A stretch of 64,000 bases of DNA from Acidimicrobiales bacterium (GTDB lineage: Bacteria; Actinomycetota; Acidimicrobiia; Acidimicrobiales; Aldehydirespiratoraceae), in contig JAJCXZ010000049.1 of assembly GCA_029263175.1 (NCBI GenBank), positions 62,001 through 126,000 of the forward strand, in the 5' to 3' direction. Positions 40,311 through 62,226 of the stretch are shown here, piece after piece. How positions within the stretch are numbered: the stretch's first letter is position 1; each line of letters starts with the position of its first letter. Position numbers and translations under genes: made by a program. The notes beneath the pieces are model-generated. The model saw nothing but the letters and a program-made list of their open reading frames with translations. It did not search any database and was not told where the DNA came from.

Positions 40311-40376
40311 ACACTACCGCGCAGTAATGCTGGACTGGCCAGGGGCTAGGTGCTCCCATAGGCTGATAGATCGGGT

Positions 40377-40391
40377 CTCCCAAGTTGGGAG
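40377..40391 (+). promoter_or_regulatory. Perfect palindrome upstream of the binding protein
   Basis: CTCCCAA-G-TTGGGAG is a perfect 7-bp inverted repeat with a one-base centre, 33 bp before the ATG at 40425. It could be an operator for the binding-protein transcript. GGAGGG at 40415-40420 is a strong Shine-Dalgarno. Confidence 0.35.
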
Positions 40392-40424
40392 TACCGAAAA
40401 TGAAAGAACCCACTGGAGGGAACT

Positions 40425-42266: not shown

Positions 42267-42290
42267 GCGGTTCTAGCTCATCGCAGTGAT

Positions 42291-42322
42291 GAGGTGGTGG
42301 GGGCTTCGGCCCCCACCACCTC
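42291..42322 (+). terminator. GC-rich UUCG hairpin after the binding-protein gene
   Basis: GAGGTGGTGGGGGC and GCCCCCACCACCTC pair perfectly (14 bp) around a TTCG tetraloop. No T-tract follows. The position between the binding-protein and permease genes fits partial termination or 3' protection of the binding-protein mRNA. Confidence 0.75.
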
Positions 42323-42360
42323 ACACGCTGTAGGCAAGCCAGTGGGGGAGTCAGAAGCAG

Positions 42361-43383: not shown

Positions 43384-44329
43384 CGAAACTTCCGAGCCGA
43401 CTGAGCCCGGTGTGGATACCGGCATGGAGGCGGCGAACGACCTCGGTGAATTCCGATCGCTTCGGGGCGATGTATGGCGCCAGTTCCGCCGTCACAAGGG
43501 TGCGATGGTCGGCGTAGTCCTCCTGGTCCTGATCACATTCGGTTGTGTGTTCGGACCGATGCTCCTGCCCTTCGACACCAAAACGCCCGTCGTCACCAAT
43601 GCCAACCGCGGCGCCGGCTGGCCTCACATCTGGGGCACCGACAACCTCGGCCGCGACTCCTTCGCCCGTGCGCTTCTCGGCGGACGAATCTCATTGGCCG
43701 TGGGCTTCGTCGCCATGGCCGTATCGATCCTGCTCGGCGTTCTCGTCGGTGTGCTCGCTGGATTCTTCCGTTGGCTCGACGGTCTCCTGATGCGCCTCAC
43801 CGACCTGTTCTTGTCGCTGCCGCTGCTGCCGATCCTCCTGGTGGTCATCGTCTTGTTCAAGAAGCCCGTCCAGGACTCTCTCGGCGATGGCCTTGGCATC
43901 TTCGTCTTGATGGTCCTGATCATCGGTGGCACGAGTTGGATGTCGACCGCTCGAATCGTGCGCGGTGAGGTGCTCTCGCTCAAGGAGCAGGAGTTCATCC
44001 TTGCCAGCCGAAGCGTCGGGACGCGACCGATGAGGATCATCGCGAAACACATCGTTCCCAACGTTCTGAGCCCTGTCATCGTGGCGGCGTCAATCGGCAT
44101 CGCGCTGGCAATTCTCACCGAGTCCGCCGTGTCGTTCCTCGGCCTGGGCTTCCCGATCGAGCTTCCGACCTGGGGTCGGCTGCTGAACGACGGGCGGAAC
44201 CGAATCACTCTCAACATCTGGCTCGTTGCCGGGCCCGGCCTGTTGCTTTCGGCCACCGTGATGAGCGTGAACTTCATCGGCGACGGTCTGCGCGACGCCC
44301 TCGACCCGAAGGCCCGTAGCCAGGGCTGA
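43376..44329 (+). CDS. Peptide ABC transporter permease (DppC/OppC)
   Basis: 317 residues. RSLRGDVWRQFRRHKGAMVG, then a first helix VVLLVLITFGCVFGPM, then WPHIWGTDNLGRDSFARAL are standard DppC marks. The EAA loop is in ASRSVGTRPMRIIAKHIVPN. ATG 43376 overlaps the DppB gene. It closes the importer operon; the mutase gene begins 28 bp later and may be read through. Confidence 0.9.
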   Translation: MTDETSEPTEPGVDTGMEAANDLGEFRSLRGDVWRQFRRHKGAMVGVVLLVLITFGCVFGPMLLPFDTKTPVVTNANRGAGWPHIWGTDNLGRDSFARALLGGRISLAVGFVAMAVSILLGVLVGVLAGFFRWLDGLLMRLTDLFLSLPLLPILLVVIVLFKKPVQDSLGDGLGIFVLMVLIIGGTSWMSTARIVRGEVLSLKEQEFILASRSVGTRPMRIIAKHIVPNVLSPVIVAASIGIALAILTESAVSFLGLGFPIELPTWGRLLNDGRNRITLNIWLVAGPGLLLSATVMSVNFIGDGLRDALDPKARSQG

Positions 44330-46334: not shown

Positions 46335-46358
46335 GACTCGAACCCCCGGGGAGTGCAT

Positions 46359-47549
46359 ATGACAGCCGTTGCGGCCGACCGAAACGACTACGACCTGTTC
46401 GGCGAGGACTACGTCGCCAACCCGGCCGAGACGTGGGCCCGGTTCCGCGAGGAATGCCCGATCGCTCACTCGACGGAGTACGGCGGCTCGTGGCTGCCGG
46501 TTCGCTATGACGACGTGGTGGCCGCCGCCCGCGACATCGACACGTTCGTCTCGGGGCAAGGTGTGAGCGTCCTGAAGGTCGCCAATCTGAAGGACAGTGG
46601 AATCCTGAGTGCGGGGGCGCCGCCGATCAGCGTCGACCCGCCGATGCACGGCTGGACCCGCCGCCTCATGCTCGCCTCCATGTCGCCGAAGTCCGTCTTG
46701 TCGTACGAGCCCGGCACCCGCGATCTGTGTCGTCGGCTGATGGCGGAGATCACCTCGAAGGGACACGGCGATGCCGCGGTGGACTATGCGCAGCAGCTCC
46801 CCGTCCGCGTGATCGGGGCTCTCATGGGTATCCCCGAAGAAGACAGCGACATGTTCGTCGGTTGGGTGCGGGCGATCCTCGAGTTCGCCTTCGATGTGGA
46901 CGGACGTGCCGCTGCCATCGGTGAGTTGATCGAGTACATGCAGGGCCAGGTCGCCGACCGGCGTCTCAATCCTGGTGATGACATTCTCAGTCATCTCGTC
47001 ACCGTCGAGGTCGAAGGCGAGCCCGTGCCCGAGGATGTGATCCTGGGCGAGGCCGCGCTGCTGCTGGTCGCCGGTGTCGACACCACGTGGAGCGCCATCG
47101 GCTCATCGCTCTACCACCTCGCCTCCAACCCGCACGACCGCCGGCGCGTGGTCGCCGAACCCGAGTTGCTCGACTCGTTCATCGAAGAGGTGTTGCGCTT
47201 CTATTCGCCAGTCACCATGGGCCGCACGGCAGTGACCGACACAGAGTTGGCCGGATGTCCGATGTCGGAGGGCGATCGTGTTCTCATGAACTTCCCCGGT
47301 GCGAACCGCGACCCCGACCACTTCGAAGACTCCGATTCGTTCATCATCGATCGAGCCCGCAATCGTCACCTCGCCTTCGGTGTCGGTATCCATCGCTGTG
47401 CGGGTTCCAACCTGGCCCGCATGGAGATGCGCGTCGCGCTCGAGGAATGGCTGGCGGCGATCCCTGAGTTCGAACTCGCTGATCCGTCGGCCGTCACCTG
47501 GGCGGGTGGACAGGTCCGTGGACCCCGATCAGTGCCGGTGAAGTTCTGA
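46359..47549 (+). CDS. Cytochrome P450
   Basis: 396 residues. The I-helix is AGVDTTWS, the ExxR motif is FIEEVLRF, and the heme loop is FGVGIHRCAGSNLARMEMR with ligand Cys347. It is soluble, so it needs a separate ferredoxin and reductase; none is in the window. The start could be GTG 46353. ATG 46359 is preferred because GGGGAG lies 5 nt before it. It is closely related to the P450 at 54833 (same AGxDTTWS and IHRCAGSNLARMEM strings), so the two probably arose by duplication and may act on successive intermediates. Confidence 0.9.
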   Translation: MTAVAADRNDYDLFGEDYVANPAETWARFREECPIAHSTEYGGSWLPVRYDDVVAAARDIDTFVSGQGVSVLKVANLKDSGILSAGAPPISVDPPMHGWTRRLMLASMSPKSVLSYEPGTRDLCRRLMAEITSKGHGDAAVDYAQQLPVRVIGALMGIPEEDSDMFVGWVRAILEFAFDVDGRAAAIGELIEYMQGQVADRRLNPGDDILSHLVTVEVEGEPVPEDVILGEAALLLVAGVDTTWSAIGSSLYHLASNPHDRRRVVAEPELLDSFIEEVLRFYSPVTMGRTAVTDTELAGCPMSEGDRVLMNFPGANRDPDHFEDSDSFIIDRARNRHLAFGVGIHRCAGSNLARMEMRVALEEWLAAIPEFELADPSAVTWAGGQVRGPRSVPVKF

Positions 47550-47562
47550 GCTTCGTCTTCTG

Positions 47563-48771
47563 ATGCGCCCCCGCTCGGCAACCACACAAACGTTGTGGGG
47601 CCTCTTCGTCCCCGTCTATCTCCCGTGGATGACCGGTGGCCTCGGCATCGCCATGGTGTTGCCGATTCTTCCCGTGTACCTGACCGACTCGGGACTCTCG
47701 TATTCGGTCGCGTCAGTGGTCCTCGCCGGTGGCGGCCTCGGCGCCATGCTGGGCGGACTGCCGGTCGGCGCCATGCTCGGCCGGCTCGGGGAGTATCGAG
47801 TGCTGCTGATCTCGCTGACGGCAATGGCGTTGGCTACCGCCTCCCTTGGTCTGACCACCGCGGTGATCGGATTGACGGCGATGCGTGTCGCCCATGGCGT
47901 CGGTCAGATCGGGCTTCGGCTCAGCCGACAGACGTTCATCACCCGCACGGTCGACACCGACATGCGGGGCCGTTCCATGGCGCTCATGGGCGGATCGGCC
48001 CGGTTCTCGATGCTGATCGGCCCGATTCTCGGTGGCGTCCTTGTCGATCAGATCGGCTACTCGTGGACGTTCGCGATCAGCGGGGCAGCCACCCTGTCAG
48101 GTCTGGTGCCCGCAATCCTGAGCCAACCGGAGAACCCTGTCGCCGACGATGCCGACGACAGGGCGAAGCCCGATGGGGCGCTTTGGCCGGCTCTGGTGCG
48201 GCATCGCCGAACCCTGCTCGTTGGCGGGCTCGGGCCCGCATTGATCATGGCGGTGCGACAGGGCCGAACGATCATCATCCCCCTCATCGGTGATTCGCTG
48301 GACATGTCTGCGTCGGCGATCGGTTTCCTGGTTGCGGTCGGGACCGGAGCGGATCTGCTCCTGTTTCCCGTGGCCGGAATCGTCATGGACCGCTTCGGTC
48401 GGCTGGCAACGATCGTGCCTGCATTCAGCCTGATCGGAGTCGGCATGGTTGTTCTGGCCGCCGCGGAGTCGGTCACCATGGTGCTCATCGCCGGCGTGAT
48501 CATGGGAGTCGGGAATGGGATCGGATCGGGGTCGATGCTCACGCTCGGGTCTGACCTCGCCCCGGTCGACAGTCCTGGCCAGTTCCTGTCGGCCCTCGCC
48601 TCGATACAGAACCTCGGTCGGATCATCGGCCCGATGCTCGTCGGCTGGTTCGCCGATGCGGCCGGACTGTCGGCCGCCGCCATCGCGCTGGCCGTGACTG
48701 TCTTCGTTGCCTTGGCCTGGATCGTGCTTCTCGTGGGAGAGACGGGGCGCAGCCGCGACGTCCGCATGTGA
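47563..48771 (+). CDS. Major facilitator superfamily transporter
   Basis: 402 residues, about twelve hydrophobic helices in two halves joined by a charged loop (SQPENPVADDADDRAKPDG). LGGLPVGAMLGRLGEYRVLL is the motif A-like loop. Substrate unknown; it may import the compound degraded by the surrounding enzymes or export a product. It lies between the first P450 and the next acyl-CoA dehydrogenase in one apparent operon. Confidence 0.85.
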   Translation: MRPRSATTQTLWGLFVPVYLPWMTGGLGIAMVLPILPVYLTDSGLSYSVASVVLAGGGLGAMLGGLPVGAMLGRLGEYRVLLISLTAMALATASLGLTTAVIGLTAMRVAHGVGQIGLRLSRQTFITRTVDTDMRGRSMALMGGSARFSMLIGPILGGVLVDQIGYSWTFAISGAATLSGLVPAILSQPENPVADDADDRAKPDGALWPALVRHRRTLLVGGLGPALIMAVRQGRTIIIPLIGDSLDMSASAIGFLVAVGTGADLLLFPVAGIVMDRFGRLATIVPAFSLIGVGMVVLAAAESVTMVLIAGVIMGVGNGIGSGSMLTLGSDLAPVDSPGQFLSALASIQNLGRIIGPMLVGWFADAAGLSAAAIALAVTVFVALAWIVLLVGETGRSRDVRM

Positions 48772-48803
48772 CGATGGCTCCCGATCCTTGCTACGAAGTG
48801 GGG

Positions 48804-50006
48804 ATGAGCACTCTCACCGAAGCCAATGTCGAAGCGCGTACGCAGGCGGTTCTCGAAGCCGTCGGAAGCGAGGGTGCCGACGTCGATTTTCGTTCCGCAC
48901 TCTGGGATGCCGGCCTCGCGTTCGTGCAGTACCCGCAAGGAAAGGGCGGTCTCGGCCTTGCCCCCGGGCTTCAGTCCGTTGTCGAACGTACGATCCGCGC
49001 CGCCGGTCGCAGCTTCCATCCGCTCGGGGTGAATGTCATCGGCATCGGCATGGGTCTGCCCACGGTGCTGACCTACGGCAGCGACGACCACCACGCCAAG
49101 CACCTGAAGCGAATCTTCACCGGCGAGGACATCTGGTGCCAGATGTTCAGCGAGCCCACTCATGGCTCCGATGTGGCGGGTCTGATGAGCCGGGCTGTTC
49201 GCGACGGCGATGAATGGATCGTCAACGGGCAGAAGGTCTGGACGAGTGGCGCCCACGTGTCGCGCTACGGGATGCTCCTGGTGCGCACCGACCCGGACGT
49301 ACCGAAGCACAAGGGTTTGTCGTACTTCATCCTCGACATGGAATCACCGGGCGTGGAGATCCGGCCGCTCTACCAGATCACCGGCGATGCCGAGTTCAAC
49401 GAGGTGTTCTTCACCGATGTCCGCATCCCGCACGAGAACCTGCTCGGTGCGGTCGGCGAAGGCTGGCGGGTGGCAACAACGACCCTGATGAACGAGCGAG
49501 TGGCCCTTGGCGGAAGCACCCTGCCGCGAGGGGCAGGGAACATCGCGTTCCTCGTTGATCTGTGGGAGAAGCGCCGAACCGATCTCGCGCCGGCGGCGGC
49601 CGCGCTCATGCGAGACCGAGTCACTCGGCTCTGGGTCGAGGCCGAGGTGGGTCGCCTCACCACGATGCGCGCTCGCGCCGCGGCCGCCAGCGGGAATCCC
49701 GGCCCCGAAGGCTCGACAGGAAAGCTCGCCTCCGCCGAACTCAACCAGCGAATCTGGAACACGGGCATGGACCTGATGGGCGCCGACGCCACCATGCACG
49801 AGCCGGGATACTCACTGGTTCGGGAGGAGGGATCGGGCGGCCGAGCGGACTACACCCTCTCGAAGCAGTTCCTGCGGTCGCAGGCCAACACCATCGAGGG
49901 CGGCACGAGCGACATCATGCGCAACATCCTCGGCGAACGAGTCCTCGGCCTCCCCGGCGATGTTCGAGTCGACAAGAACGTCCCCTGGAGGGAGATCCCG
50001 TCATGA
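48804..50006 (+). CDS. Acyl-CoA dehydrogenase
   Basis: 400 residues. WCQMFSEPTHGSDVAGLMSR, IVNGQKVWTSGA and SQANTIEGGTSDIMRNILGE are the family landmarks. RADYTLSKQFLRSQANTIEG near the end resembles FadE-type proteins of steroid side-chain degradation. ATG 48804 has a GTGGGG ribosome site directly before it; an earlier in-frame ATG (48768) overlaps the transporter stop. Its stop is coupled (ATGA) to the luciferase-like gene. Confidence 0.9.
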   Translation: MSTLTEANVEARTQAVLEAVGSEGADVDFRSALWDAGLAFVQYPQGKGGLGLAPGLQSVVERTIRAAGRSFHPLGVNVIGIGMGLPTVLTYGSDDHHAKHLKRIFTGEDIWCQMFSEPTHGSDVAGLMSRAVRDGDEWIVNGQKVWTSGAHVSRYGMLLVRTDPDVPKHKGLSYFILDMESPGVEIRPLYQITGDAEFNEVFFTDVRIPHENLLGAVGEGWRVATTTLMNERVALGGSTLPRGAGNIAFLVDLWEKRRTDLAPAAAALMRDRVTRLWVEAEVGRLTTMRARAAAASGNPGPEGSTGKLASAELNQRIWNTGMDLMGADATMHEPGYSLVREEGSGGRADYTLSKQFLRSQANTIEGGTSDIMRNILGERVLGLPGDVRVDKNVPWREIPS

Positions 50007-50908
50007 GTAGCCGTCCGCTTCCCGCTGTTTCGCTCGCCGCCGTGCCCGGTCGCCGCGCCGCCACCCTCGAACTCGCAAAGGAGATCGAGGAGCGAGGCTT
50101 CTCGGGTGTGTACTGTCCGTCCTTCGGCGACGGCATGAGCTTGTGCCTGGCGCTGGCCATGTCGACCGAGCGCATCGAGTTCGGCACGTCCATCGCCAAC
50201 ATGTACACCCGGCATGTGGCTGACTATGCGCAGACGGCCTCGTTCATCCACGAGATCTCGAACGGCCGGTTCCGGTTCGGCATCGGCGTGTCGCACGAGC
50301 CGGCACTCGATCGTCTCGGCGTCAACGCCGGTCGACCCCTGGCCGACACCCGGTCGTTTGTCGAGGATCTCACTGCTCAGAAGCGGATCGGCGATCTGCC
50401 GCCAATCGTGTTGGCCGCCATGCGCGATCGCATGTGTGCACTGGCGACGGAGATCGGTGACGGCATGGTTTTCGCCAACGCCGCTCGCAGCGCGTTCGCC
50501 GGCACGCTCGAACGTTGTCCCGATTCGGGCCGCGACGACTTCTTCATCGGCGGCATGATCCCGACGTGCATCTCCGACGATCGCGATGCCGCGGCAGCCG
50601 TCAACCGTCGCACGCTCACGGGCTACGTCGCTCTCCCGAACTACCGGAACTACTGGAAGGACTCGGGCTACCAGGAGGAGATGGAAGCCATCGAAGCAGC
50701 GCTCGAGGCCGGGGACCGAGAGGTGCTGCCCGGTCTGATGACCGACGCGTGGCTCAGCGACTGCACTCTCTACGGCTCGGCCACCGAGGTCCGTGATGGC
50801 CTCGAGGCCTGGTACGACGCCGGTCTCACCACCCCGATTCTCGTTCCGTCCTCGGCCCGCGGCGGTCAGATGAAGGCTTTTGAGGAGCTGTTCGACTGCT
50901 TCGGCTAA
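50003..50908 (+). CDS. LLM-class flavin-dependent oxidoreductase
   Basis: 301 residues, luciferase-like barrel. EEIERGFSGVYCPSFGDGMS-like N-terminal segment, TERIEFGTSIANMYTRHVAD, and SNGRFRFGIGVSHEPALDRL identify the family. It lacks the usual GLGAGW loop wording, so it is a divergent member. ATG 50003 overlaps the stop of the acyl-CoA dehydrogenase. Context suggests an oxidation or reduction step on the same acyl substrate or its aldehyde. Confidence 0.8.
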   Translation: MSSRPLPAVSLAAVPGRRAATLELAKEIEERGFSGVYCPSFGDGMSLCLALAMSTERIEFGTSIANMYTRHVADYAQTASFIHEISNGRFRFGIGVSHEPALDRLGVNAGRPLADTRSFVEDLTAQKRIGDLPPIVLAAMRDRMCALATEIGDGMVFANAARSAFAGTLERCPDSGRDDFFIGGMIPTCISDDRDAAAAVNRRTLTGYVALPNYRNYWKDSGYQEEMEAIEAALEAGDREVLPGLMTDAWLSDCTLYGSATEVRDGLEAWYDAGLTTPILVPSSARGGQMKAFEELFDCFG

Positions 50909-50978: not shown

Positions 50979-52388
50979 GTGACAAGAGGCATTCTCGGCT
51001 ACGGCGTTCATGTCCCGTACTACCGGCTGCAGCGTTCAGCGATCGGTGCGACGCTCGGAGCCGGCGGCGGGAAGGGCACCCGAGCGGTTGCTTCCTACGA
51101 CGAGGATGCCACCTCCATGTCGGTGGAGGCGGCTCGTGCGGCACTGGGTTCGTTCGCCGCCCCGACGCCGGCGGCCGTCTACTTCTGTTCCGTCACCCCG
51201 CCGTATCTCGACAAGACCAACGCCAACGCGATTCACGCTGCCCTCAACTACCCATCAGAGGTCTTTGCCGGAGACATGGTCGGTTCGGCCCGCTCGACCA
51301 CGGCGGCCCTCACCGCGGCACTGAATGATCGCCGCCCCGTGCTCATCACGTCGGCCGACGTGCGCACCGGTCGGCCGGGGAGCGGCGACGAGGCCGCACT
51401 CGGCGATGCCGCTGCCGCGGTCATGATCGGCTCCGATGGCGACGCCCCGGTGATTGCCGAATGGATCGGTACCTCGTCGATCACCCACGAGTTTCTCGAC
51501 CGTTGGCGTGAGCCGGGTTGGAACTACTCCCGCGTGTGGGAAGAGCGATTCGGCGAGTCGGTCTACAACAAGCTCGTAGCCGAAGCAGCCACAGTCGCAT
51601 TCAAGGACACCGAACTCTCGGCAGCCGACATCGACAGGGTGGTCATCAGTGGGCTGCACGCCCGAGCGGTGCGCAGCGCCGCCGCGGCCGCCGGTGTCAG
51701 CGCGGTGCCGTCAGCGCAGGATCTCACTGCCGCCATCGGCAACACGGGTAGCGCCCACGGACTCGTGGCCCTCGCTCAGGCGCTCGATACGGCCGAACCC
51801 GACGAAACCCTCATGCTGATCAACCTGGCCGACGGATGCGATGTCAGCATCTTCCGCACGACCGACGCCATCGTCGACTACACGCCGGCCCGTCCTGTCG
51901 CTCAACAGGTGCAGCAGGGCAACGACAGCCTCGAGTACGCGAAGTTCCTCACTTGGCGGGGCTATCTCGATCGCGAACCACCCCGTCGCCCCGACCCCGA
52001 GTCACCGGCCGGGCCGCCGTCGGAGCGCAACACCGGCTGGAAGTTCGCTCTCATCGGGTCGCGTGACCGCGGCACCGGCAACGTCTACCTCCCGCCGCAG
52101 CGTGTGGCCCTCGAGGGTGGTGCGGTCGACGACTACGAACTCGTGCCGATGGCCGACATCGAGGCCACCGTCGCAACGTTCACCATCGATCATCTGGCCT
52201 TTTCGCCGTCGCCGCCGACCCTCGCCGTGGTCGTCGACTTCGATGGTGGCGGTCGATTCATGACCGAGCTCACCGATGCCGATGCAGACGAGGTCCACAT
52301 TGGCCTCCGGGTGCGTATGACCTTCCGCAAGGTCCTGACCGCCAACGGTGTGCACAACTACTTCTGGAAAGCAATCCCCGTTCGATAG
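50979..52388 (+). CDS. HMG-CoA-synthase-like thiolase-fold protein fused to a DUF35 OB domain
   Basis: 469 residues, two modules. Residues 1-320 resemble archaeal-type HMG-CoA synthases (RGILGYGVHVPYYRL; HEFLDRWREPGWNYSRVWEE; ITAAIGNTGSAHG-like). Residues 330-469 form a DUF35 OB domain. At the place of the nucleophilic cysteine the sequence is GDMVGSARSTTAAL, with Ala104 where Cys is expected. The zinc ribbon that normally starts DUF35 is reduced to IGSRDRGTGNVYLPP, without cysteines. It may be a scaffold or aldolase-like partner of the thiolase encoded 9 bp downstream. GTG start, AGGAGC upstream. Confidence 0.75.
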   Translation: MTRGILGYGVHVPYYRLQRSAIGATLGAGGGKGTRAVASYDEDATSMSVEAARAALGSFAAPTPAAVYFCSVTPPYLDKTNANAIHAALNYPSEVFAGDMVGSARSTTAALTAALNDRRPVLITSADVRTGRPGSGDEAALGDAAAAVMIGSDGDAPVIAEWIGTSSITHEFLDRWREPGWNYSRVWEERFGESVYNKLVAEAATVAFKDTELSAADIDRVVISGLHARAVRSAAAAAGVSAVPSAQDLTAAIGNTGSAHGLVALAQALDTAEPDETLMLINLADGCDVSIFRTTDAIVDYTPARPVAQQVQQGNDSLEYAKFLTWRGYLDREPPRRPDPESPAGPPSERNTGWKFALIGSRDRGTGNVYLPPQRVALEGGAVDDYELVPMADIEATVATFTIDHLAFSPSPPTLAVVVDFDGGGRFMTELTDADADEVHIGLRVRMTFRKVLTANGVHNYFWKAIPVR

Positions 52389-52397
52389 GAGCACAAA

Positions 52398-53597
52398 ATG
52401 GGTTCACGAGGAATCAAGGATCAGGTCGCAATCGTCGGCATGGGGTGCACCCAGTTCGGTGAACGCTTCGATCGGTCGCTCGACGACATGATCATCGAGG
52501 CCGCGCACGCGGCGTACGACTCCGCCGGTATCAGCCAGGACGATGTCGACGCGTTCTGGTTCGGCACACTCGGCTCCGGCACCTCCGGGCTCACGATCAG
52601 CAAGCCGCTGAAGATCGACTACAAGCCGGTCACTCGCGTCGAGAACATGTGCGCCTCCGGTTCAGAGGCGTTCCGCAACGCGGCCTACGCGGTGGCTTCT
52701 GGTGCGTTCGACGTCGTGATGGCGATCGGCGCCGAGAAGCTCAAGGACAACGGCATGTCCGGACTCGTCGGCGCTCAGGTTCCCGACGACGGCACCAAGA
52801 CCCAGATCACCGCGCCCGCGTCCTTTTCCCTGCTCGCCCCCGCCTACGGAGAAAAGTACGGCGTCGAGCCCGACACGATGAAAGCCGTGATGGCTCGCAT
52901 CGCGTGGAAGAACCACTACAACGGTGCCCGCAATCCTCGAGCTCAGTTCCAGAAGGAAGTGAGCATCGAGACGATCTGCAACGCCCCGCTGGTGGCCGGC
53001 CAGCTCGGGATCTTCGACTGCTCGGGTGTCAGCGATGGCTCCGCCGCGGCGATCCTGTGCCGTGCCGAGGACGCCTACAAATACTGCGACAACCCGCTCT
53101 TCGTGAAAGCGCTCGCGTTCACATCGGGGCCCGGTGCCGGTCCGCTCGACCCCGACTACGACTACACGACCTTCGACGAGGTCACTCGGTGTGCCATCGA
53201 CGCCTATGAGCAGGCCGGTGTCACCGACCCCCGTACCGAGATCGCCATGGCCGAGGTGCACGACTGCTTCACGCCGACCGAGCTCGTGTTGATGGAGGAC
53301 CTCCAGTTCTCCAAGCGGGGCGAGGGTTGGGAAGACGTCATGGCCGGTACGTTCGACCTCGATGGTGAGCTGCCGGTCAATCCCGACGGCGGCCTCAAGA
53401 GCTTTGGTCACCCGATCGGCGCATCCGGCCTTCGCATGCTGTTCGAGTGTTGGCTCCAGCTCCGCAAGGAGGCGCCGGAGGATCGACAGATCCTGTCGGT
53501 CGACAAGGGCAAGACCCTTGGGCTCACCCACAATCTCGGAGGTCGACCCGGTGAATGCGTGAGCTTCGCCGCCATCGTCGGCTCCGAGCTGGGCTGA
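52398..53597 (+). CDS. SCP-x/acetyl-CoA acyltransferase-type thiolase
   Basis: 399 residues. The nucleophilic Cys85 is in VENMCASGSEAF. The second motif is VHDCFTPTEL, and the histidine motif is GHPIGASGLRM. This layout belongs to the SCP-2/thiolase family that pairs with DUF35 proteins. It is intact, unlike its upstream partner. Likely role: thiolytic cleavage of a 3-ketoacyl-CoA or a retro-aldol/Claisen step with the upstream fusion. AGGAGC precedes the ATG. Confidence 0.85.
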   Translation: MGSRGIKDQVAIVGMGCTQFGERFDRSLDDMIIEAAHAAYDSAGISQDDVDAFWFGTLGSGTSGLTISKPLKIDYKPVTRVENMCASGSEAFRNAAYAVASGAFDVVMAIGAEKLKDNGMSGLVGAQVPDDGTKTQITAPASFSLLAPAYGEKYGVEPDTMKAVMARIAWKNHYNGARNPRAQFQKEVSIETICNAPLVAGQLGIFDCSGVSDGSAAAILCRAEDAYKYCDNPLFVKALAFTSGPGAGPLDPDYDYTTFDEVTRCAIDAYEQAGVTDPRTEIAMAEVHDCFTPTELVLMEDLQFSKRGEGWEDVMAGTFDLDGELPVNPDGGLKSFGHPIGASGLRMLFECWLQLRKEAPEDRQILSVDKGKTLGLTHNLGGRPGECVSFAAIVGSELG

Positions 53598-53605
53598 TCC
53601 TGCGG

Positions 53606-54814
53606 ATGATCGACGACGATCTCGACGATTTCCGCCAGCGGTGCCGCGCCTTTCTGGCCGAACATGCCACGGGTGTCAATGTCGCGGAGGGCGACGACCC
53701 CCGCGCTGAACAGGCATTGGCCGCGGCCAAGGAATTCCAGCACGCATTGGTCGAAGCCGGTCTTGCCGGACTGACCTATCCCAAGGAATACGGCGGCCAG
53801 GGCCTCACCGCCGGCCACGAGCAGATCTGGCGTGAGGAAGCCGGCACCTTCCCGGTGATGACTCGTCAGCTCTCCATCTCACACGGTATGGCACTGCCGA
53901 TGCTCAACGAATACGGCTCCGACGAACAACGCAGCACGTATCAAGCGAAGGTCATCGCTGCAGAGGAGGTCTGGTGTCAGATGTTCTCCGAACCCGGTGC
54001 CGGCTCCGACGTGGCGAGCCTGCAGTCCCGTGCTGTCCGCGACGGCGATGAGTGGATCCTCAACGGGCAGAAGGTGTGGACCACGCTCGCCCACGTGTGT
54101 GAGCGCGGCTTGATCATTGCCCGCACCGATCTCGATCAGCCCAAACACCGCGGCATCTCGATGTTCATCCTCGACATGAACGCGCCGGGTGTGGAGATCC
54201 GACCGATCCACCAGATCGACGGTGGCATGCGGTTCAACGAGGTGTTCTTCACCGACGTCCGCATCCCCGCCGATCATCTCATCGGGCCGATCAACGAAGG
54301 CTGGCGGTTGGCCACTGCCATGCTCATGTACGAACGTGTCGCCATCGGTGGTGGCCAAGCGCTGGGGATCACCCACCCCCGCGCCGACCTCCTCATCAAG
54401 GAGGCCAAGCAGCGCAGCAAGCTCGAGGACCCGCTTCTGCGCCAGAGGATCATGGAGCTGTACTCCGCCGAGGTGTGCCAGAGCCTCATCTCCATGCAGA
54501 CCCGTGCCGCGCTTCAGGCAGGCAAGACACCGGGGCCGGGCGGGTCGCTCGGCAAGCTGGCCGGTGCGAATATTGCCGCGATGTATCGAGGTTTGTCGCT
54601 CGATGTCGTGGGGGTCGAGGGTGTCGCGTGGGAATCCAACGGCCGCTGGGCCAACGAAGCGCTCGGCACGTTCGCCAGCGGAATCGCCGGCGGCACCGAC
54701 CAGATCCAGCGAAACATCATCGGCGAGCGGGTCCTTGGATTACCGCGCGAGCCATCGGTGGACAAAGATCTTCCATTCCGCGACTTGAAAGTAGGGACAC
54801 AAGCCGCGGGCTGA
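53606..54814 (+). CDS. Acyl-CoA dehydrogenase
   Basis: 402 residues. Landmarks are WCQMFSEPGAGSDVASLQSR, LNGQKVWTTLAHVCERG and ASGIAGGTDQIQRNIIGERV. It resembles the dehydrogenase at 48804 in its central region, so the two might form a heteromeric alpha/beta pair as in some steroid-degrading FadE enzymes; this is inference. ATG 53606 is 9 bp after the thiolase stop. The next gene follows 19 bp after its stop. Confidence 0.9.
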   Translation: MIDDDLDDFRQRCRAFLAEHATGVNVAEGDDPRAEQALAAAKEFQHALVEAGLAGLTYPKEYGGQGLTAGHEQIWREEAGTFPVMTRQLSISHGMALPMLNEYGSDEQRSTYQAKVIAAEEVWCQMFSEPGAGSDVASLQSRAVRDGDEWILNGQKVWTTLAHVCERGLIIARTDLDQPKHRGISMFILDMNAPGVEIRPIHQIDGGMRFNEVFFTDVRIPADHLIGPINEGWRLATAMLMYERVAIGGGQALGITHPRADLLIKEAKQRSKLEDPLLRQRIMELYSAEVCQSLISMQTRAALQAGKTPGPGGSLGKLAGANIAAMYRGLSLDVVGVEGVAWESNGRWANEALGTFASGIAGGTDQIQRNIIGERVLGLPREPSVDKDLPFRDLKVGTQAAG

Positions 54815-54832
54815 TCACGTCAAGGGGAACGC

Positions 54833-56050
54833 ATGACCACAGTCGAACCAGTCGAGGATTGGGCCGAGGACTTCGAGATCTTCGATCCGGAGTTCGTGAA
54901 CGATCCGTATCCGATCTGGAAGGACCTGCGCGACAGCGGATGCCCTTTTGCCCGCACCGAGAGACGGCAGGTCACCTACATGCCGACCACGTTTCAGGGT
55001 GTGCGTGATGTGGCGGCCGACACTGACACCTGGTCGTCGTTCTCCGTGTCGGTCACGCCGGTGCCCGAGAACTATGACGCCGACGGCAATCGCCTGCGCT
55101 CGATCATCGCCACTGATGCGCCGGAGCACACTCCTGAGCGTCGCCTCATGCTGCCGTTCTTCGCCCCCCGTGCGGTGGAGAAGTACCGCGAGCACACCCA
55201 GGAGCTCTGCCGGAAGCTGATCCGCGAGTTCATCGAGGACGGCCAGGCCGACATCGCCGAGAACTACGCCCGCCAGATCCCGCCGCGCATCATCGCCGCG
55301 ATCCTCGGCATCGACCCGGAGCGGGCCGACGATTTCACGACCTGGGTGCAGGGCTCTCTCGAGCTCGGTCTTCAGGATCCCGTGATCCGCGAGCACTACT
55401 CGAAGATCATTCGTGAGTTCTTCAAGGGCGAGATCAAGGACCGGATGGAGAACCCGGGCGACGACCTGATCTCGTTCCTGCTCGATGCCGAGATCGATGG
55501 CGAGCCGGTGCCGATGCCGGTCATCCGCGGCAACGTCGGCCTGATGCTCGTGGCCGGCATCGATACGACCTGGAGCTCGATCGGGTCGGCGCTGTGGCAC
55601 CTTGCCTCACACCCCGAGGACCGCCGACGTCTCGTTGATGAACCCGAACTGATCCCCACGGCGGTCGAGGAGTTCCTGCGGGCCTACTCACCGGTGACCA
55701 TGGCTCGCATTGCCACCGAGGACACCACGCTCGAGGGTCGCGAGGTCAAGGAGGGGGAGCGCATCATGCTCACGTTCCCCGCCGCCAACCGTGACCCGGA
55801 GATGTTCGAGAACCCTGAAGAGGTGATCATCGATCGCCAGCGCAATCGCCACGTCGCGTTCGGGTCCGGAATCCATCGCTGCGCCGGCTCGAATCTCGCC
55901 CGAATGGAGATGAACGTCGCCATCGAGGAGTTCCTGAAGATGATCCCGGAGTTCGAGCTCGCCGATCCCGACGCCGTCACCTGGGCCGGCGGTCAGGTTC
56001 GCGGCCCCCGCCACCTCCCCGTGGTCTTCCCCAACCGGACTGCCCTCTAG
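54833..56050 (+). CDS. Cytochrome P450
   Basis: 405 residues. The I-helix is AGIDTTWSS, ExxR is VEEFLRAY, and the heme loop is FGSGIHRCAGSNLARMEM with ligand Cys350. It ends with TWAGGQVRGPRHLPVVF, almost the same as the P450 at 46359, which indicates paralogy. ATG 54833 has AAGGGGA upstream. Redox partners are not encoded in the window. Role: hydroxylation of a hydrophobic substrate of the island, probably before CoA activation. Confidence 0.9.
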   Translation: MTTVEPVEDWAEDFEIFDPEFVNDPYPIWKDLRDSGCPFARTERRQVTYMPTTFQGVRDVAADTDTWSSFSVSVTPVPENYDADGNRLRSIIATDAPEHTPERRLMLPFFAPRAVEKYREHTQELCRKLIREFIEDGQADIAENYARQIPPRIIAAILGIDPERADDFTTWVQGSLELGLQDPVIREHYSKIIREFFKGEIKDRMENPGDDLISFLLDAEIDGEPVPMPVIRGNVGLMLVAGIDTTWSSIGSALWHLASHPEDRRRLVDEPELIPTAVEEFLRAYSPVTMARIATEDTTLEGREVKEGERIMLTFPAANRDPEMFENPEEVIIDRQRNRHVAFGSGIHRCAGSNLARMEMNVAIEEFLKMIPEFELADPDAVTWAGGQVRGPRHLPVVFPNRTAL

Positions 56051-56057
56051 TTCGGAA

Positions 56058-56063
56058 TTGACA
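56058..56063 (+). promoter_or_regulatory. TTGACA box 35 nt upstream of an acyl-CoA dehydrogenase
   Basis: TTGACA followed by TCCG starts exactly 35 nt before the ATG at 56093. It is the same box and spacing as at 10890 for the paralogous gene. No -10 is evident. Confidence 0.35.
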
Positions 56064-56092
56064 TCCGGGTCTCCGGGCTCAAGGCTGCGCCA

Positions 56093-57349
56093 ATGGATCT
56101 GAACTATCCCGACGAGTCCGTCGCGTTTCGAGAGAAGATCGGCGCATTCCTCGACGAGCACCTGCCGAGCGACTGGGCCGGCCTGGGTGCGCTACCCGCT
56201 GACCAGACCCATGGCTGGCTGGTGGAGTGGCGTCAGACGCTGCGCAACGCACAACTGCTCGCGGCCAACTGGCCAACCGAGTACGGCGGCGCGGGGCTCA
56301 CTCATCTCGAACACGTCGTGCTCAACGAGGAGTTCGCCAAGCGTGGCGTCCCCACGTCGGGCATCAACGACGGCTTCAGCATCGGCATGGTGGGCAACAC
56401 CATCCTGCACTGGGGCACCGAGGAACAAAAGCAGTACTACATTCCCCGGATTCTCGAAGGCACCGACATCTGGTGCCAGGGCTACAGCGAACCCAATTCC
56501 GGGTCCGACCTCGCCAACCTCGGTCTGCGGGCCGTGCTCGATGGCGACGAATGGGTGCTCAATGGGCAGAAGACCTGGACGTCATCGGCCACCCACGCCA
56601 ACATGATCTTTGCGCTGTGCCGCACCGATCCCGACGCCGCCAAGCACAAGGGGATCTCCTTCCTGTTGGTGTCCATGGATCAGCCCGGTGTCGAGGTCCG
56701 TCCGATCCTCGACATGGGCAAGCACGAGCACGTCAACGAGGTCTTCTTCCAAGACGCCCGCACCGCCAAGGGCAATGTGCTCGGTGAGCCCCACGGCGGC
56801 TGGGCAGTGGCCAACACCCTGCTCGGCTTCGAGCGCGGTGTCGGTGCCACCACGGCTGCGCTGCGATTCAGCGAAGAACTCCAGAACTTCATCGAGCTCG
56901 CCAGGCGCTACGACAAACTCGACGATCCGAGCGTCCGCCAAGACATCGCCCGGTTCCACACCGCGGTCGAAATCATGCGATTCCGGGGGTACCAGGTGCT
57001 CACCCGTTTCCTGGCCGGTCTCGCCCCCGGCCCGGAGTCCTCGATCGGCAAGCTCTGGTGGAGTAGCTACCACCAGAAGATCACCGAGGCGTCGCTTGGG
57101 ATCGCCGGCGCCGACGGCATGGTGGGCTTCGGCGAGGAGACCCGTGACGGACTGGGTGCACCCGAGCTCGGCACACCCAACACGGTCGCCAATTGGATGA
57201 GCAGCTTCTTCATCGCCCGCCCCGGCACGATCTACGCGGGTACCACCGAGGTGCAGAAGGGCATCATCGGTGAACGAGTGCTCGGCCTGCCGAAGGAGCC
57301 GCGTGCCGACGGCGGCACCTGGCGAGAGAACCAGTCCTCGCAAGGATGA
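56093..57349 (+). CDS. Acyl-CoA dehydrogenase (paralogue of the 10925 gene)
   Basis: 418 residues, the same length as the gene at 10925 and nearly collinear. It has WCQGYSEPNSGSDLANLGLR, LNGQKTWTSSATHANMIFAL and PGTIYAGTTEVQKGIIGERV. It forms the double bond at the acyl-CoA alpha-beta position. Its ATG overlaps no upstream gene. The stop is coupled by ATGA to the enoyl-CoA hydratase, the enzyme expected to act next. Confidence 0.9.
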   Translation: MDLNYPDESVAFREKIGAFLDEHLPSDWAGLGALPADQTHGWLVEWRQTLRNAQLLAANWPTEYGGAGLTHLEHVVLNEEFAKRGVPTSGINDGFSIGMVGNTILHWGTEEQKQYYIPRILEGTDIWCQGYSEPNSGSDLANLGLRAVLDGDEWVLNGQKTWTSSATHANMIFALCRTDPDAAKHKGISFLLVSMDQPGVEVRPILDMGKHEHVNEVFFQDARTAKGNVLGEPHGGWAVANTLLGFERGVGATTAALRFSEELQNFIELARRYDKLDDPSVRQDIARFHTAVEIMRFRGYQVLTRFLAGLAPGPESSIGKLWWSSYHQKITEASLGIAGADGMVGFGEETRDGLGAPELGTPNTVANWMSSFFIARPGTIYAGTTEVQKGIIGERVLGLPKEPRADGGTWRENQSSQG

Positions 57350-58146
57350 GCGCCGACTTCGGCACCTTCGGGGATCTGCACGTCACGGTCGACGACGACT
57401 TCGTCGCCACCGCGGAGATTCGACGACCACCCAACAATTTCTTCTCGCCGGCGCTGATCGACTCGATGGTCGATGCCTTCCGTGCGATTGACGAGGACTC
57501 GGCCTGTCGAGCGATTGTCTTGTGTTCTGAAGGCAAGCACTTCTGTGCGGGAGCTGACTTCAACGGCGATGGCGACGCCAGTCCAGAAGCTCGCAATCCC
57601 AACGGGTCACCCCGTCATCTCTACGATGCCGCGGTCGACCTCTTCGCCACGACTACGCCCGTTGTCGCGGCAGTGCAGGGTGCCGCGATCGGTGGCGGTC
57701 TCGGCGTGGCGTGTTTTGCCGATTTCCGTGTGGCTGCGCCAGAGGCGCGCTTCGCCGCCAACTTCGCTCGACTCGGGTTCCATCACGGATTCGGCCTGAG
57801 CGCCACCCTTCCGCCGCTCGTCGGCCAACAGCGTTCACTCGAACTTCTCTACACCGGGCGACGAATCAACGGGGAGACGGCTCACCAGATCGGTTTGGCG
57901 GATCGCCTCGCACCGCTCGACGATCTGCGCGCCGAGGCGCACGCACTTGCCGCCGAGATCGCGGGGTCTGCTCCGCTGGCGGTCGCCTCGATCCGTCAGA
58001 CGATGCGCGGTGACCTCGCGCCGAAGGTCAAGGCCGCAACCGATCGTGAAAAGGCCGAGCAGGAGTGGCTACGCCAGACCGGTGATTGGAAGGAGGGCGT
58101 GAAGGCAATGGCCGAGCGTCGTCCTCCGAACTTCACGGCCGAGTAG
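57346..58146 (+). CDS. Enoyl-CoA hydratase/isomerase family protein
   Basis: 266 residues, crotonase fold. The oxyanion-hole segments are KHFCAGADFNGDG and VQGAAIGGGLGVACFADFRV, followed by ANFARLGFHHGFG. It would hydrate the 2-enoyl-CoA made by the coupled acyl-CoA dehydrogenase. The catalytic glutamates of classical hydratases are not obvious, so an isomerase or hydrolase variant is possible. Translational coupling supports joint function. Confidence 0.85.
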   Translation: MSADFGTFGDLHVTVDDDFVATAEIRRPPNNFFSPALIDSMVDAFRAIDEDSACRAIVLCSEGKHFCAGADFNGDGDASPEARNPNGSPRHLYDAAVDLFATTTPVVAAVQGAAIGGGLGVACFADFRVAAPEARFAANFARLGFHHGFGLSATLPPLVGQQRSLELLYTGRRINGETAHQIGLADRLAPLDDLRAEAHALAAEIAGSAPLAVASIRQTMRGDLAPKVKAATDREKAEQEWLRQTGDWKEGVKAMAERRPPNFTAE

Positions 58147-58215
58147 AGGTTGGGTCGCAAGAATGGTCAGAAAAGCTCGCCGGGTCGACCCCGATCAACC
58201 GGGAGAATCAACGAC

Positions 58216-58905
58216 ATGACCGTGTTCGACACCGACTCGATCCTTCCCGCGCCTCCCGAAGGCGCTGTTCCAGTGCTGCACGATCGGGAGTACCGCGTGC
58301 AGTCGTATCGTCTGGCCGACGATCGTGTGCTCATCCAGGCCGCGTTGCGTGATCAGCGCCCACCCGGCCTCAGCATCCCGGGCGACCCGAACCCCCTGAC
58401 GGTGCATCACATGACGGTCGAGATCGAGGTCACGATGCCCAAACTCGAGATCGTGGCGGCCCGCACCAATATCGCCGCTCATCCCCACAACACGTGCACC
58501 GACATCGTGGCTCGCTACGACGCACTGGTGGGGCTCAGCATCGCTCGCGGCTTCACGCACAAGATCCGTGAGCTGTTCGGTGGTCCCCGTGGCTGCACCC
58601 ACACGACGGCGTTGCTGCAAGCGATGGCGCCGGTGGCGGTTCAGTCCCGCAACGGCCATCGGACGGCCAACACGATCGCCAACGGCGATCCGCACCCGAT
58701 CGAGGATGATTCGAACAGCCAGCGATTCAGGCATCTGAGCAATACCTGTCACGTGTGGGCGGAGGACGGCGCCATGATGACCGAAGTGAAGGTCTCCGGC
58801 TCACGCGAGCCGATGCTCACGGTTCGCCGCCGCCTCGACGAACTCGGTCTGGATTCCCGTGGGCGACCGGTGAGCAACGTACGCGACGGGGGCGAAGGTT
58901 CATGA
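58216..58905 (+). CDS. DUF2889 family protein
   Basis: 229 residues from ATG 58216, preceded by GGGAG 11 nt upstream; an in-frame extension to 58150 is basic and unlikely. The DUF2889 signature is seen in HHMTVEIEVTMPKLEIVAAR and the GCTHTTALLQAMAPVA block, with HPHNTC in between. The function of the family is unknown. It often sits beside thioesterases, CoA ligases or P450s in actinobacteria, as here. Confidence 0.75.
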   Translation: MTVFDTDSILPAPPEGAVPVLHDREYRVQSYRLADDRVLIQAALRDQRPPGLSIPGDPNPLTVHHMTVEIEVTMPKLEIVAARTNIAAHPHNTCTDIVARYDALVGLSIARGFTHKIRELFGGPRGCTHTTALLQAMAPVAVQSRNGHRTANTIANGDPHPIEDDSNSQRFRHLSNTCHVWAEDGAMMTEVKVSGSREPMLTVRRRLDELGLDSRGRPVSNVRDGGEGS

Positions 58906-58955
58906 CGATCGCCGGCTTCCGTCGAGGCCTCCGAGAAGCAGGAAGGTAGGAGACC

Positions 58956-60596
58956 GTGGGCGAACTCAGCTTCGCGACTGCTTGGGAGGTCGTTGCCGAC
59001 ACTCGCGGTGACCGGCTGGCCCTCCACAACGGCGGAGTCGCGCGCACATGGGCCGAGTTCGAGAATCGGGCCGCCCGTCTCGCCGGCGTGCTCTCGGCCG
59101 CCGGCGTGGACGCGGGGAGCAATGTCGCTCTCGCCCTCTACAACGGCAATGAATACCTGGAGGCAGAGTTCGCGGCGTTCAAGTTGCGTGCCGCACCATG
59201 CAACGTGAACTACCGCTACGTCGAAGCCGAGCTGACCTATCTGGTCTCCAACAGTCAGGCCAAGGCGGTGTTCTTCGATCATGCGTTGGCCGACCGCTTC
59301 GCCGCGATACACGAGGGACTTCCCGGTGTTCAACTGTGGATCCATGTCGGTGACGGCGAATGCCCTGCGTGGGCCCGTGCCTACGAAGACCTGATCGCGC
59401 AGTCCGACCCGGCGCCGAGGATCGAACGGGACTCCGAGGATCTCTGGATCCTCTACACCGGTGGCACGACTGGGCACCCAAAGGGTGTGATGTGGCCCCA
59501 CGGGAACCTCATGGCGTTGATTCGGCGTTCGCTTGCGCCGCTCGGCCTCGAATTGCCGACGACGGTTGCTGACTATGCCGCCACGCTCGATTCCCTGGAT
59601 GCCCTCACCGACCCGCCCCGCCAGCTGGCTGCGTCACCGCTGATGCACGGCACCGCCGGGATCGGTTCGCTCTTCACCCTGTTCCAGGGCGGAGCGGTCG
59701 TCACGCTCACCAATCGGAGCTTCGATTCGGCCGAACTCTGGCAGACCGTGGCCGATGTGCGCTGCACGCTCGTGAGCATCGTCGGCGACGTCTTCTGTGC
59801 ACCGATGGTCGATGCGCTCGACGAGGCCACCGCTGCGGGTAGGCCGGTCGACCTTTCGTCGGTTCGATCGGTGTCGTCATCGGGCGTCATGTGGAGCCAG
59901 CCGGTGAAGGACCGTTTGTTGACCCATGCCCGCGCGGTGGGATCCGATCTCCTGTGCAACGACTCGCTGGGGGCAAGCGAGGGCGTCGGGTTCGCGGGCA
60001 AGGAATCCAAGGGCGACGGCGACACCGAGACCGCGACATTCACGCTTGGTCCCAACGCGGCGGTCTTCAACGACGATGGCAGCAGGGTGGAGCCGGGCTC
60101 AGGCGAGACCGGTCTTCTCGCCGTGAGTGGACCGATCCCGGTCGGCTACTTCGGCGACCCGGTGAAGTCCGCCGAGACGTTCCGTGAGATCGAGGGCCAG
60201 CGCTGGTCGGTTCCCGGCGACTTCGCCCGTATCGAAGCGGACGGCACGCTTGTCCTGCTCGGCCGCGGCTCGGTGTCGATCAACACCGGTGGTGAGAAGG
60301 TCTTCCCCGAAGAGGTCGAGGAAGCGCTGAAGCTGCTTCCGGAGATCGTCGACGCCAACGTCGTCGGTGTGCCCGACCCCAAGTGGGGCGCAGCGGTCAC
60401 CGCGGTGGTCGAAGTCGCCGACGGAGCGTCGCTTTCTGACGAGGAGATGGTCGACGCGCTGCGTTCGCACCTCTCCGGCTACAAGCTCCCGAAGAATGTC
60501 GTACGGGTCGACCGGGTGTTCCGAAGCCCCAATGGCAAGGCCGACTACAAGTGGGCGACCGCGACGGCGCTGGAGGAACTGGGACTCGGGCCATGA
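58956..60596 (+). CDS. Acyl-CoA synthetase (ANL superfamily)
   Basis: 546 residues. P-loop is LWILYTGGTTGHPKGVMWPH, then SSSGVMWS, SVPGDFARIEADGT, SINTGGEKVFPEEVEEALKL and the catalytic lysine in RSPNGKADYKWA. The TGGTTG form of the P-loop is typical of a clade of actinobacterial ligases that act on bulky acids (for example steroid or terpenoid acids), an inference from family knowledge. GTG start with GGTAGGAGA upstream. Its stop overlaps the ATG of a tandem paralogue (ATGA). Confidence 0.9.
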   Translation: MGELSFATAWEVVADTRGDRLALHNGGVARTWAEFENRAARLAGVLSAAGVDAGSNVALALYNGNEYLEAEFAAFKLRAAPCNVNYRYVEAELTYLVSNSQAKAVFFDHALADRFAAIHEGLPGVQLWIHVGDGECPAWARAYEDLIAQSDPAPRIERDSEDLWILYTGGTTGHPKGVMWPHGNLMALIRRSLAPLGLELPTTVADYAATLDSLDALTDPPRQLAASPLMHGTAGIGSLFTLFQGGAVVTLTNRSFDSAELWQTVADVRCTLVSIVGDVFCAPMVDALDEATAAGRPVDLSSVRSVSSSGVMWSQPVKDRLLTHARAVGSDLLCNDSLGASEGVGFAGKESKGDGDTETATFTLGPNAAVFNDDGSRVEPGSGETGLLAVSGPIPVGYFGDPVKSAETFREIEGQRWSVPGDFARIEADGTLVLLGRGSVSINTGGEKVFPEEVEEALKLLPEIVDANVVGVPDPKWGAAVTAVVEVADGASLSDEEMVDALRSHLSGYKLPKNVVRVDRVFRSPNGKADYKWATATALEELGLGP

Positions 60597-62226
60597 CCGA
60601 TCTGAACCTCGCTTCCGTCTGGGAGTTCGTCGCCGATGACTACGGTGACCGATTGGCGCTGTGGCATGGCGACACCAAACGCACCTGGTCGGAGTTCGAG
60701 TCGCGGGCATCGCTGCTGGCCGGAGCGCTCGCCGAGGTCGGAGTCGGGCTGGGCGACAATGTTGCTCGCTCTACAACGGCAACGAGTATCTCGAGGCCGA
60801 GTTCGCCGCCATGAAGGTTCGCGCCGCACCTTGCAATGTCAATTACCGGTACGTCGAGAATGAGCTCGCCTACCTGATCGACAACTGCGATGCGAAGGCC
60901 GTCTTCTTCGACCACGAGCTCGCAGATCGCTTCGACGCTGTGCACAGCGACCTCCGCAAGGTGAACCTCTGGGTCCACGTCGGTGACGGTCCTTGTCCTG
61001 ATTGGGCGGTTGGCCACGAGCAGCTGATCGAGTCGTCGTCGCCCGCGCCGCGGATCGAGCGCAGCAGCGATGATCTGTGGATCCTGTACACGGGCGGCAC
61101 TACCGGGAACCCCAAGGGTGTCATGTGGTCCCACGGCAACATCGCCGCCCTCATCGAACGCATTCTGGGCAATCTCGGTGTGGAGATCCCGACCACTCTT
61201 GCGGGTATCGCGCCGATGCTCGCCGCGATTGACGCTGCCGGCGCCGTGCCGCGCCAGTTGGCCGCCGCTCCGTTGATGCATGGCACCTCCGGGCTCGGTG
61301 CGCTGATCAATCTCTTCATCGGTGGGTCGGTGATCACGCTGACCGACCGGCACTTCAGCCCCGTCGAGCTCTGGGAGACCGTCGAGCGTACCCAGGCGAC
61401 CCTGGTCACCATCGTGGGCGATGTGTTCTGCGCGCCGATGGTCGATGCGCTCGATGACGCGGTAGCGGCGGGACGGCCGTTCGATCTTCGCTCGCTGGTG
61501 ACGATCGGGTCCTCGGGCGTGATGTGGAGCGAGTCGGTCAAGGACCGCCTCCTCGCCCATGCCCGGGCATCAGGGTCCAGCATGTTCTGCAACGACGGCC
61601 TCGGCGCGAGCGAAGGTGTCGGTTTCGCATCCAAGGCCTCAGTCGGCGATGGCGACACCGCAACCGCCACGTTCACTCTCGGCGAGAACGCCGCAGTGTT
61701 CACCGAGGACGGTCGGCGGGTCGAACCCGGATCGGAGGAGGCCGGGCTTCTGGCGGTCACCGGTCCGATACCGCTCGGCTACTACGGCGATCCTGTGAAA
61801 TCGGCCGAGACGTTCCGAGAATTCGAAGGTAAGCGCTGGTCGGTCCCTGGCGACTGGGCCACCTTGGCTGCCGATGGCACGGTCACGCTGCTCGGGCGCG
61901 GATCGGTGTCGATCAACACCGGAGGAGAGAAGGTCTATCCCGAAGAGGTCGAGGAGGCGCTGAAGCTCCTGCCCGGGGTGGTCGACGCAAACGTCGTCGG
62001 TGTGCCCGACCAGAGATGGGGGTCGGCGGTCACCGCCGTTGTTCAGCTCGCGGCTGGGGCCGAGCTCGGAGACCAAGAGATGATCGACAGCCTCCGCACG
62101 GCGCTGTCCGGCTACAAACTGCCGAAGAACATCGTGAGGGTCGACACGGTCTTCCGCGGCCCCAACGGCAAAGCCGACTACAAGTGGGCGACGGCAACTG
62201 CGCTGGAGGCGCTGGCTCTGGCGTGA
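60593..62226 (+). pseudogene. Tandem acyl-CoA synthetase paralogue with a frameshift near its start
   Basis: The first 58 codons (MTDLNLASVWEFVADD ... GLGDNVA, to about 60766) are in one frame, and the rest (LYNGNEYLEAEFAAMK ... GKADYKWA) is in another. Together they match the 546-residue ligase just upstream over their whole length. The paralogue has NVALALYNGNEY here, so 1 base (or 4) is missing between 60761 and 60771. No slippery sequence is present. It is either a recent inactivating mutation or a sequencing/assembly error. The downstream part keeps LWILYTGGTTGNPKGVMWSH and the catalytic lysine. Confidence 0.8.

Follow-up and report, generated by a model that had tools for sequence, protein, structure and literature searches.

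A Fused HMG-CoA-Synthase-Like/DUF35 Protein Lacking Nucleophile and Zinc Ribbon as the Probable Non-Catalytic Partner of an Acidimicrobiales Thiolase

Genes and Domains at the Locus

The window, meaning the whole 64,000-nucleotide stretch of Acidimicrobiales DNA analysed here, carries an open reading frame, P0001, in which an HMG-CoA-synthase-like half of the thiolase fold and a DUF35 half are joined in a single chain (Table 1). An AGGAG motif lies shortly 5' of its start codon, and its TAG stop overlaps the AGGAG of the following gene, which starts 9 bp past that stop. The product of this gene scores 577 bits against the PRK06157 equivalog of NCBIfam (cut-off 403), and the intact thiolase that the original prediction had placed here is indeed present, with its nucleophile and both assisting motifs in place.

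Table 1. Features of the fusion gene, its thiolase partner and the surrounding genes, in window positions.
Feature	Position	Strand	Details
ORF P0001, HMG-CoA-synthase-like/DUF35 fusion	50979-52388	+	469 aa, GTG start
HMG-CoA-synthase-like (thiolase-fold) half, residues 1-330	50979..51968	+	Triad positions Val72, Ala104, Ser224
Ala104 codon, site of the HMG-CoA synthase nucleophile (Cys114 in 6ESQ chain I)	51288..51290	+	
Pro-rich linker joining the halves, residues 331-352	51969..52034	+	Low model confidence
Cysteine-free DUF35 zinc ribbon remnant, residues 353-386	52035..52136	+	Former Cys positions 363 D, 366 T, 377 A, 380 G
DUF35 OB-fold domain (PF01796), residues 387-469, plus stop codon	52137..52388	+	
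SCP2-type thiolase (NCBIfam PRK06157)	52398..53597	+	Cys85, HDC 288-290, GHP histidine intact
Upstream genes	46353..50908	+	Cytochrome P450, transporter-like (MFS, from sequence alone), acyl-CoA dehydrogenase, luciferase-like monooxygenase
Downstream genes	53612..62226	+	Acyl-CoA dehydrogenase; P450 and third acyl-CoA dehydrogenase (both judged from sequence); enoyl-CoA hydratase; DUF2889 protein; two AMP-binding (acyl-CoA ligase type)
DUF2889 protein	58150-58905		PF11136, 94 bits; same gene run
Methylmalonyl-CoA-mutase-like protein	44358-46334		658 aa, catalytic and B12 domains
Oligopeptide/nickel-type ABC transporter	39288-44329		ATPase, substrate-binding protein, two permeases

The fusion/thiolase pair is the constant unit, and the remaining neighbourhood varies among relatives. 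P450s, acyl-CoA dehydrogenases and acyl-CoA ligases surround the pair in the window and in the window's closest relatives. On annotated plasmids of Rhodococcus, Mycobacterium and Variovorax, it is found near acyl-CoA ligases, enoyl-CoA hydratases, acyl-CoA dehydrogenases or ring-hydroxylating dioxygenases. Many Acidimicrobiia carry the pair away from recognisable beta-oxidation genes, beside unrelated genes. DUF2889 genes recur near the pair in Variovorax (L165 6512-7096) and at two further loci (L009, L019), so that the DUF2889 protein may be part of the pair's acyl-CoA pathway. The mutase-like protein reaches 471 bits against a methylmalonyl-CoA mutase equivalog cut-off of 876, and because this score is well under the cut-off, it may act on another acyl-CoA. 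The ABC transporter lies directly upstream of the acyl-CoA genes.

Fold, Homologues and Selection

The OB half of DUF35 (PF01796) is recognised in P0001 at residues 389-450, with 53.8 bits against a Pfam cut-off of 27.1, and a match to ACP_syn_III_C is weak and sub-threshold. The protein also falls far short of the NCBIfam cut-offs of the HMG-CoA synthase equivalogs (148 versus 244 bits for NF003274, and 104 versus 353 for TIGR00748). Among solved structures, the best relative of the HMG-CoA-synthase-like half by sequence is 6esq_I (profile E 1e-44), followed by PhlA (E 1e-37 to 9e-40) and the MucABC chain 9vbo_A (E 1e-27), and the last 120 residues, which form the DUF35 half, match 6esq_E (E 9.8e-17). 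The AlphaFold model of P0001 (mean pLDDT 84, pTM 0.88) superposes on 6esq_I with Z 39.9 and 2.4 Å over 329 residues, as expected of an HMG-CoA synthase fold, and the top matches of Foldseek are the same as those of the structural superposition.

Four sets supplied the homologues: 47 loci in GTDB species genomes, 51 of 296 genomes in a sample across the phylum, 70 of 119 genomes among close relatives, and 34 plasmid records, six of which were examined. The total is about 150, sampled from Actinomycetota, Chloroflexota and Proteobacteria, with few outside Actinomycetota. The fused architecture is common and not unique to the source genome, and is annotated in RefSeq as "OB-fold domain-containing protein". 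Two fusions (L031 and L032) carry Gly/Ala-rich insertions of about 25-35 residues near residue 153 of the HMG-CoA-synthase-like half, which are absent from most homologues. Compared with 11 relatives, dN/dS is 0.04-0.22 in the HMG-CoA-synthase-like half and 0.02-0.18 in the OB half, rough values given a dS of about 1 or more, near saturation. Within that roughness, P0001 is under purifying selection. Decay of P0001 into a pseudogene was considered and is ruled out by this selection, together with the conserved replacement residues described below.

Family-Wide Loss of the Catalytic Residues

The original prediction described a fusion without a nucleophile, and the alignment bears this out. Ala104, within the motif GSARSTTAAL, aligns with the catalytic Cys114 of the Methanothermococcus HMG-CoA synthase (6ESQ chain I), and Val72 and Ser224 stand at the Glu82 and His238 positions of the same chain. 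Residues of HMG-CoA synthase other than Cys114 and Glu82 are taken here to have the roles usual in the family. In 146 distinct homologues, the nucleophile column contains no cysteine and is occupied instead by L, V, P, A, I, T, H, S, G or Q; likewise, the Glu82 column contains no Glu and the His238 column no His. Since the same absences recur in orthologues, they are not a matter of chance. Because the catalytic residue is missing at all three columns in every homologue, the loss of the nucleophile is, as judged from this sample, old and family-wide across Actinomycetota, Chloroflexota and Proteobacteria, and not specific to the source genome. No substitute conserved cysteine was found in the HMG-CoA-synthase-like half among the homologues. 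The sole position with Cys in more than 30% of them is residue 287, which was rejected as an alternative catalytic residue, being Cys in only 52 of about 141 and otherwise mostly Ala or Val.

The HMG-CoA-synthase-like half nevertheless keeps many invariant residues, including R105, D99, W176, W187 and R190, and residue 105 is Arg or Lys in 142 of the 146 homologues, which leaves room for a binding or catalytic role of the fusion. Some loops of low confidence in the model are also highly conserved. A fusion that has gained other catalysis through residues outside the triad, such as a thiolase-coupled hydratase, decarboxylase or thioesterase step, would make sense of such conservation, but is highly unlikely. 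The Arg/Lys column beside the lost nucleophile is also Lys in the active archaeal HMG-CoA synthase and is explicable by CoA binding or structure, no cysteine is conserved elsewhere (residue 287 is Cys in only about a third of homologues), and the PhlA precedent is non-catalytic.

A Later Loss of the Zinc Ribbon

The zinc ribbon was likewise predicted to be missing, and it is. The ribbon region of P0001 is without any cysteine (LIGSRDRGTGNVYLPPQRVALEGGAVDD), its four Cys columns reading D, T, A and G, so that it has neither four cysteines nor a C3H1 set, and the zinc-ribbon model PF12172 reaches 11.8 bits, under its cut-off of 23.2. The complete CxxC...CxxC pattern is present in 72 of 144 distinct homologues, and the other 72 have no ribbon cysteine at all. 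The replacements in these cysteine-free homologues are themselves conserved (D in 68/72, S or T in 68/72, S in 60/72 and G in 63/72), and the neighbouring PP and R are also kept. The predicted cysteine-free ribbon has the same strands (block pLDDT 77-88) as that of a cysteine-bearing relative, L050 (91-93), and the ribbon is shortened or removed in a few relatives (L056, L148, L150 and L068).

The history of this loss was addressed with a tree from which the ribbon columns were left out and in which 49 zinc-less rows were included. Of these rows, 48 form one supported clade (SH-aLRT 97), with the remaining one (L052) close by, and constraining all 49 as one group gives a likelihood better than the free search (p-AU 0.836). 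The tree is consistent with a single zinc-ribbon loss within Acidimicrobiia; repeated independent losses are unneeded, given that the grouping of all 49 rows outperforms the free search. A genome-wide loss of zinc ribbons is also ruled out as the cause, as the only other DUF35 protein found in the source genome has all four Cys and adjoins its own thiolase.

Many homologues without the nucleophile keep an intact ribbon, and because of this the loss of the ribbon is, on the distribution of the residues, an event separate from the loss of the nucleophile and younger than it. The two absences named together in the original prediction thus part company: neither an alternative conserved Cys nor a nucleophile-bearing homologue was found, whereas intact zinc ribbons are found in many homologues. 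We lean slightly towards a scenario in which a large Acidimicrobiia lineage would have acquired a zinc-less DUF35 in its thiolase complex after one loss. A conserved Asp/Ser/Ser/Gly cap would keep the ribbon shape, the ribbon would later have been shortened or deleted in side branches, and zinc would have become dispensable once DUF35 was fused to a dead HMG-CoA-synthase-like partner.

The Thiolase Partner

The pairing of the fusion with a thiolase is near-universal. Where homologues had enough downstream DNA, a related thiolase lies within 400 nt downstream on the same strand in 142 of 144, and in the two exceptions the next thiolase is 0.9 and 2.3 kb off. All 141 aligned partner thiolases have Cys85, and the HDC and GHP motifs are conserved too. 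Among solved structures, the window thiolase is closest to 4yzo (194 bits), 6esq_A (192 bits, E 1.1e-55) and 7yvy, with much weaker matches to PhlC (99 bits) and to Ltp2, 6ok1 (79 bits). Two variants of the arrangement were observed. In one actinobacterial family (L108-L111), the HMG-CoA-synthase-like protein is unfused and also lacks the Cys; the thiolase encoded after it keeps its nucleophile but has YNS in place of the HDC found in others. In a Deltaproteobacterium (L044 3398-7608), a thiolase, a separate zinc-bearing DUF35, a fusion and a second thiolase are encoded consecutively, giving two neighbouring versions of the system.

A retro-aldolase pair, of the kind formed by Ltp2/ChsH2-DUF35 (6OK1) and Sal/Shy-DUF35 (9MYR) in steroid degradation, was the second possibility raised by the original prediction, which had offered a non-catalytic scaffold or a novel aldolase subunit. 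In those systems, DUF35 also docks on a thiolase-fold enzyme, and the window shares with them the pairing of DUF35 with a thiolase fold, as well as P450s and acyl-CoA genes nearby. However, the thiolase folds of Ltp2 and Sal are aldolases, their DUF35 shares a chain with a MaoC hydratase domain, a fusion absent here, and zinc is still bound. In Sal, Gly replaces the nucleophilic Cys of SCP-2 thiolases, and the motif is YDCY; Shy-DUF35 has a changed zinc site with C3H1 coordination (PMC12329534). The window thiolase, like all its aligned counterparts, keeps Cys85; its motif is HDCF, and its similarity to Ltp2 is far below that to 6esq_A. Because of the differences from Sal, in both the nucleophile and the motif, the aldolase half of the original prediction is disfavoured, and a retro-aldolase function for the pair is extremely improbable.

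Comparison with Known Systems and Proposed Function

The complex 6ESQ/6ET9 of Methanothermococcus thermolithotrophicus, comprising acetoacetyl-CoA thiolase, DUF35 and HMG-CoA synthase, ranks first or close to first in sequence and fold similarity for every part, and homologues of all three components are encoded together here. Unlike P0001, the HMG-CoA synthase of 6ESQ is active, its DUF35 is a separate zinc-bearing chain, and the product is HMG-CoA; in P0001, the synthase-like half has lost the triad and is joined to a DUF35 without zinc. A second likeness is to the multi-component acyltransferases PhlACB (PpATase, 5M3K) and MucABC (9VBO), in which a nucleophile-less HMG-CoA-synthase-like subunit stands beside an active thiolase-fold subunit. 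Both PhlA and the MucABC chain 9vbo_A are without the nucleophilic Cys when aligned with P0001, and PhlACB also has a DUF35 bridge. It differs in having PhlA and the zinc-binding PhlB as separate chains and in its CoA-independent phenolic acyl transfer. In PhlACB, PhlA lacks Cys114 and Glu82 and only residues of PhlC contact the substrate, with PhlA (HMG-CoA-synthase-like) and PhlB (DUF35) surrounding PhlC and thought to be structural, being needed for proper folding of the complex (PMC6392133). The fused layout recurs in the RefSeq pairs of "OB-fold domain-containing protein" and "acetyl-CoA acetyltransferase", such as Rhodococcus WP_029538842.1 and WP_005245652.1 and Mycobacterium avium WP_014941018.1. 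They are 40-50% identical and share the fusion, the thiolase partner and the missing nucleophile but, unlike P0001, keep four zinc cysteines.

We consider P0001 to be most likely a non-catalytic partner of the downstream thiolase, a pseudo-HMG-CoA synthase joined to a zinc-less DUF35 scaffold, serving in degradative 3-oxoacyl-CoA thiolysis. The observations behind this reading are the family-wide loss of catalytic residues, the purifying selection, the near-universal pairing with an intact thiolase, and the match of the three parts to 6ESQ chains. The scaffold half of the original prediction is well supported, because the nucleophile is missing everywhere, an adjacent intact thiolase is nearly always present, and PhlA and PhlB provide a solved precedent. 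In the proposed mechanism, the thiolase would carry all of the chemistry, with Cys85 forming the acyl-enzyme and the HDC and GHP residues assisting. A physical complex and its geometry are suggested by homology and gene pairing. The OB domain of the fusion would dock on the thiolase in the manner of DUF35 in 6ESQ, PhlACB and Sal/Shy. Like PhlA in PhlACB, the dead HMG-CoA-synthase-like dimer would wall and shape the substrate/CoA cavity and hold the complex together. This scaffold and pocket-wall role is proposed by analogy to PhlACB (PhlA, PhlB) and to Sal/Shy, in which the zinc finger of DUF35 gives the thiolase-fold enzyme's substrate cleft its shape (PMC12329534).

The direction of the reaction and its substrate are also putative: the thiolase most likely cleaves, by thiolysis, the 3-oxoacyl-CoA made by the products of the surrounding acyl-CoA dehydrogenase and hydratase genes. 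In many Acidimicrobiia the case for this degradative role is weaker, because the pair there stands apart from recognisable beta-oxidation genes. A non-catalytic fusion could also scaffold an acyltransferase of the PhlACB/MucABC type, in which Cys85 would move an acyl group from a carbon or oxygen donor to another acceptor instead of acting in thiolytic beta-oxidation, and the standing of PhlA and the MucABC chains as the next closest solved structures after 6ESQ, likewise without the nucleophile, speaks for it. However, the window thiolase is nearer to acetoacetyl-CoA thiolases (6esq_A and 4yzo) than to PhlC, and the neighbourhoods are acyl-CoA catabolic rather than phenolic antibiotic clusters, so that an acyltransferase is unlikely.

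Significance

In 2010 it was already pointed out that DUF35 occurs fused to members of the thiolase superfamily and that PhlA is inactive (PMC2954200). Zinc binding is reported for every DUF35 protein with a structure by 2019 (PMC6996347). A limited search of the open literature found no cysteine-free DUF35 clade and nothing useful on the fused pair in degradation pathways; as far as this search extends, the widespread zinc-less DUF35 clade is new. If the proposed function is true, it would explain a common gene pair known only as "OB-fold domain-containing protein" and "acetyl-CoA acetyltransferase". The pair, which recurs in catabolic operons, some of them aromatic, would unite a degradative thiolase with a pseudoenzyme scaffold that it cannot do without. 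The family also offers a natural series, running from the zinc ribbon through the cysteine-free ribbon to shortened and deleted forms, for probing the purpose of the DUF35 zinc ribbon.
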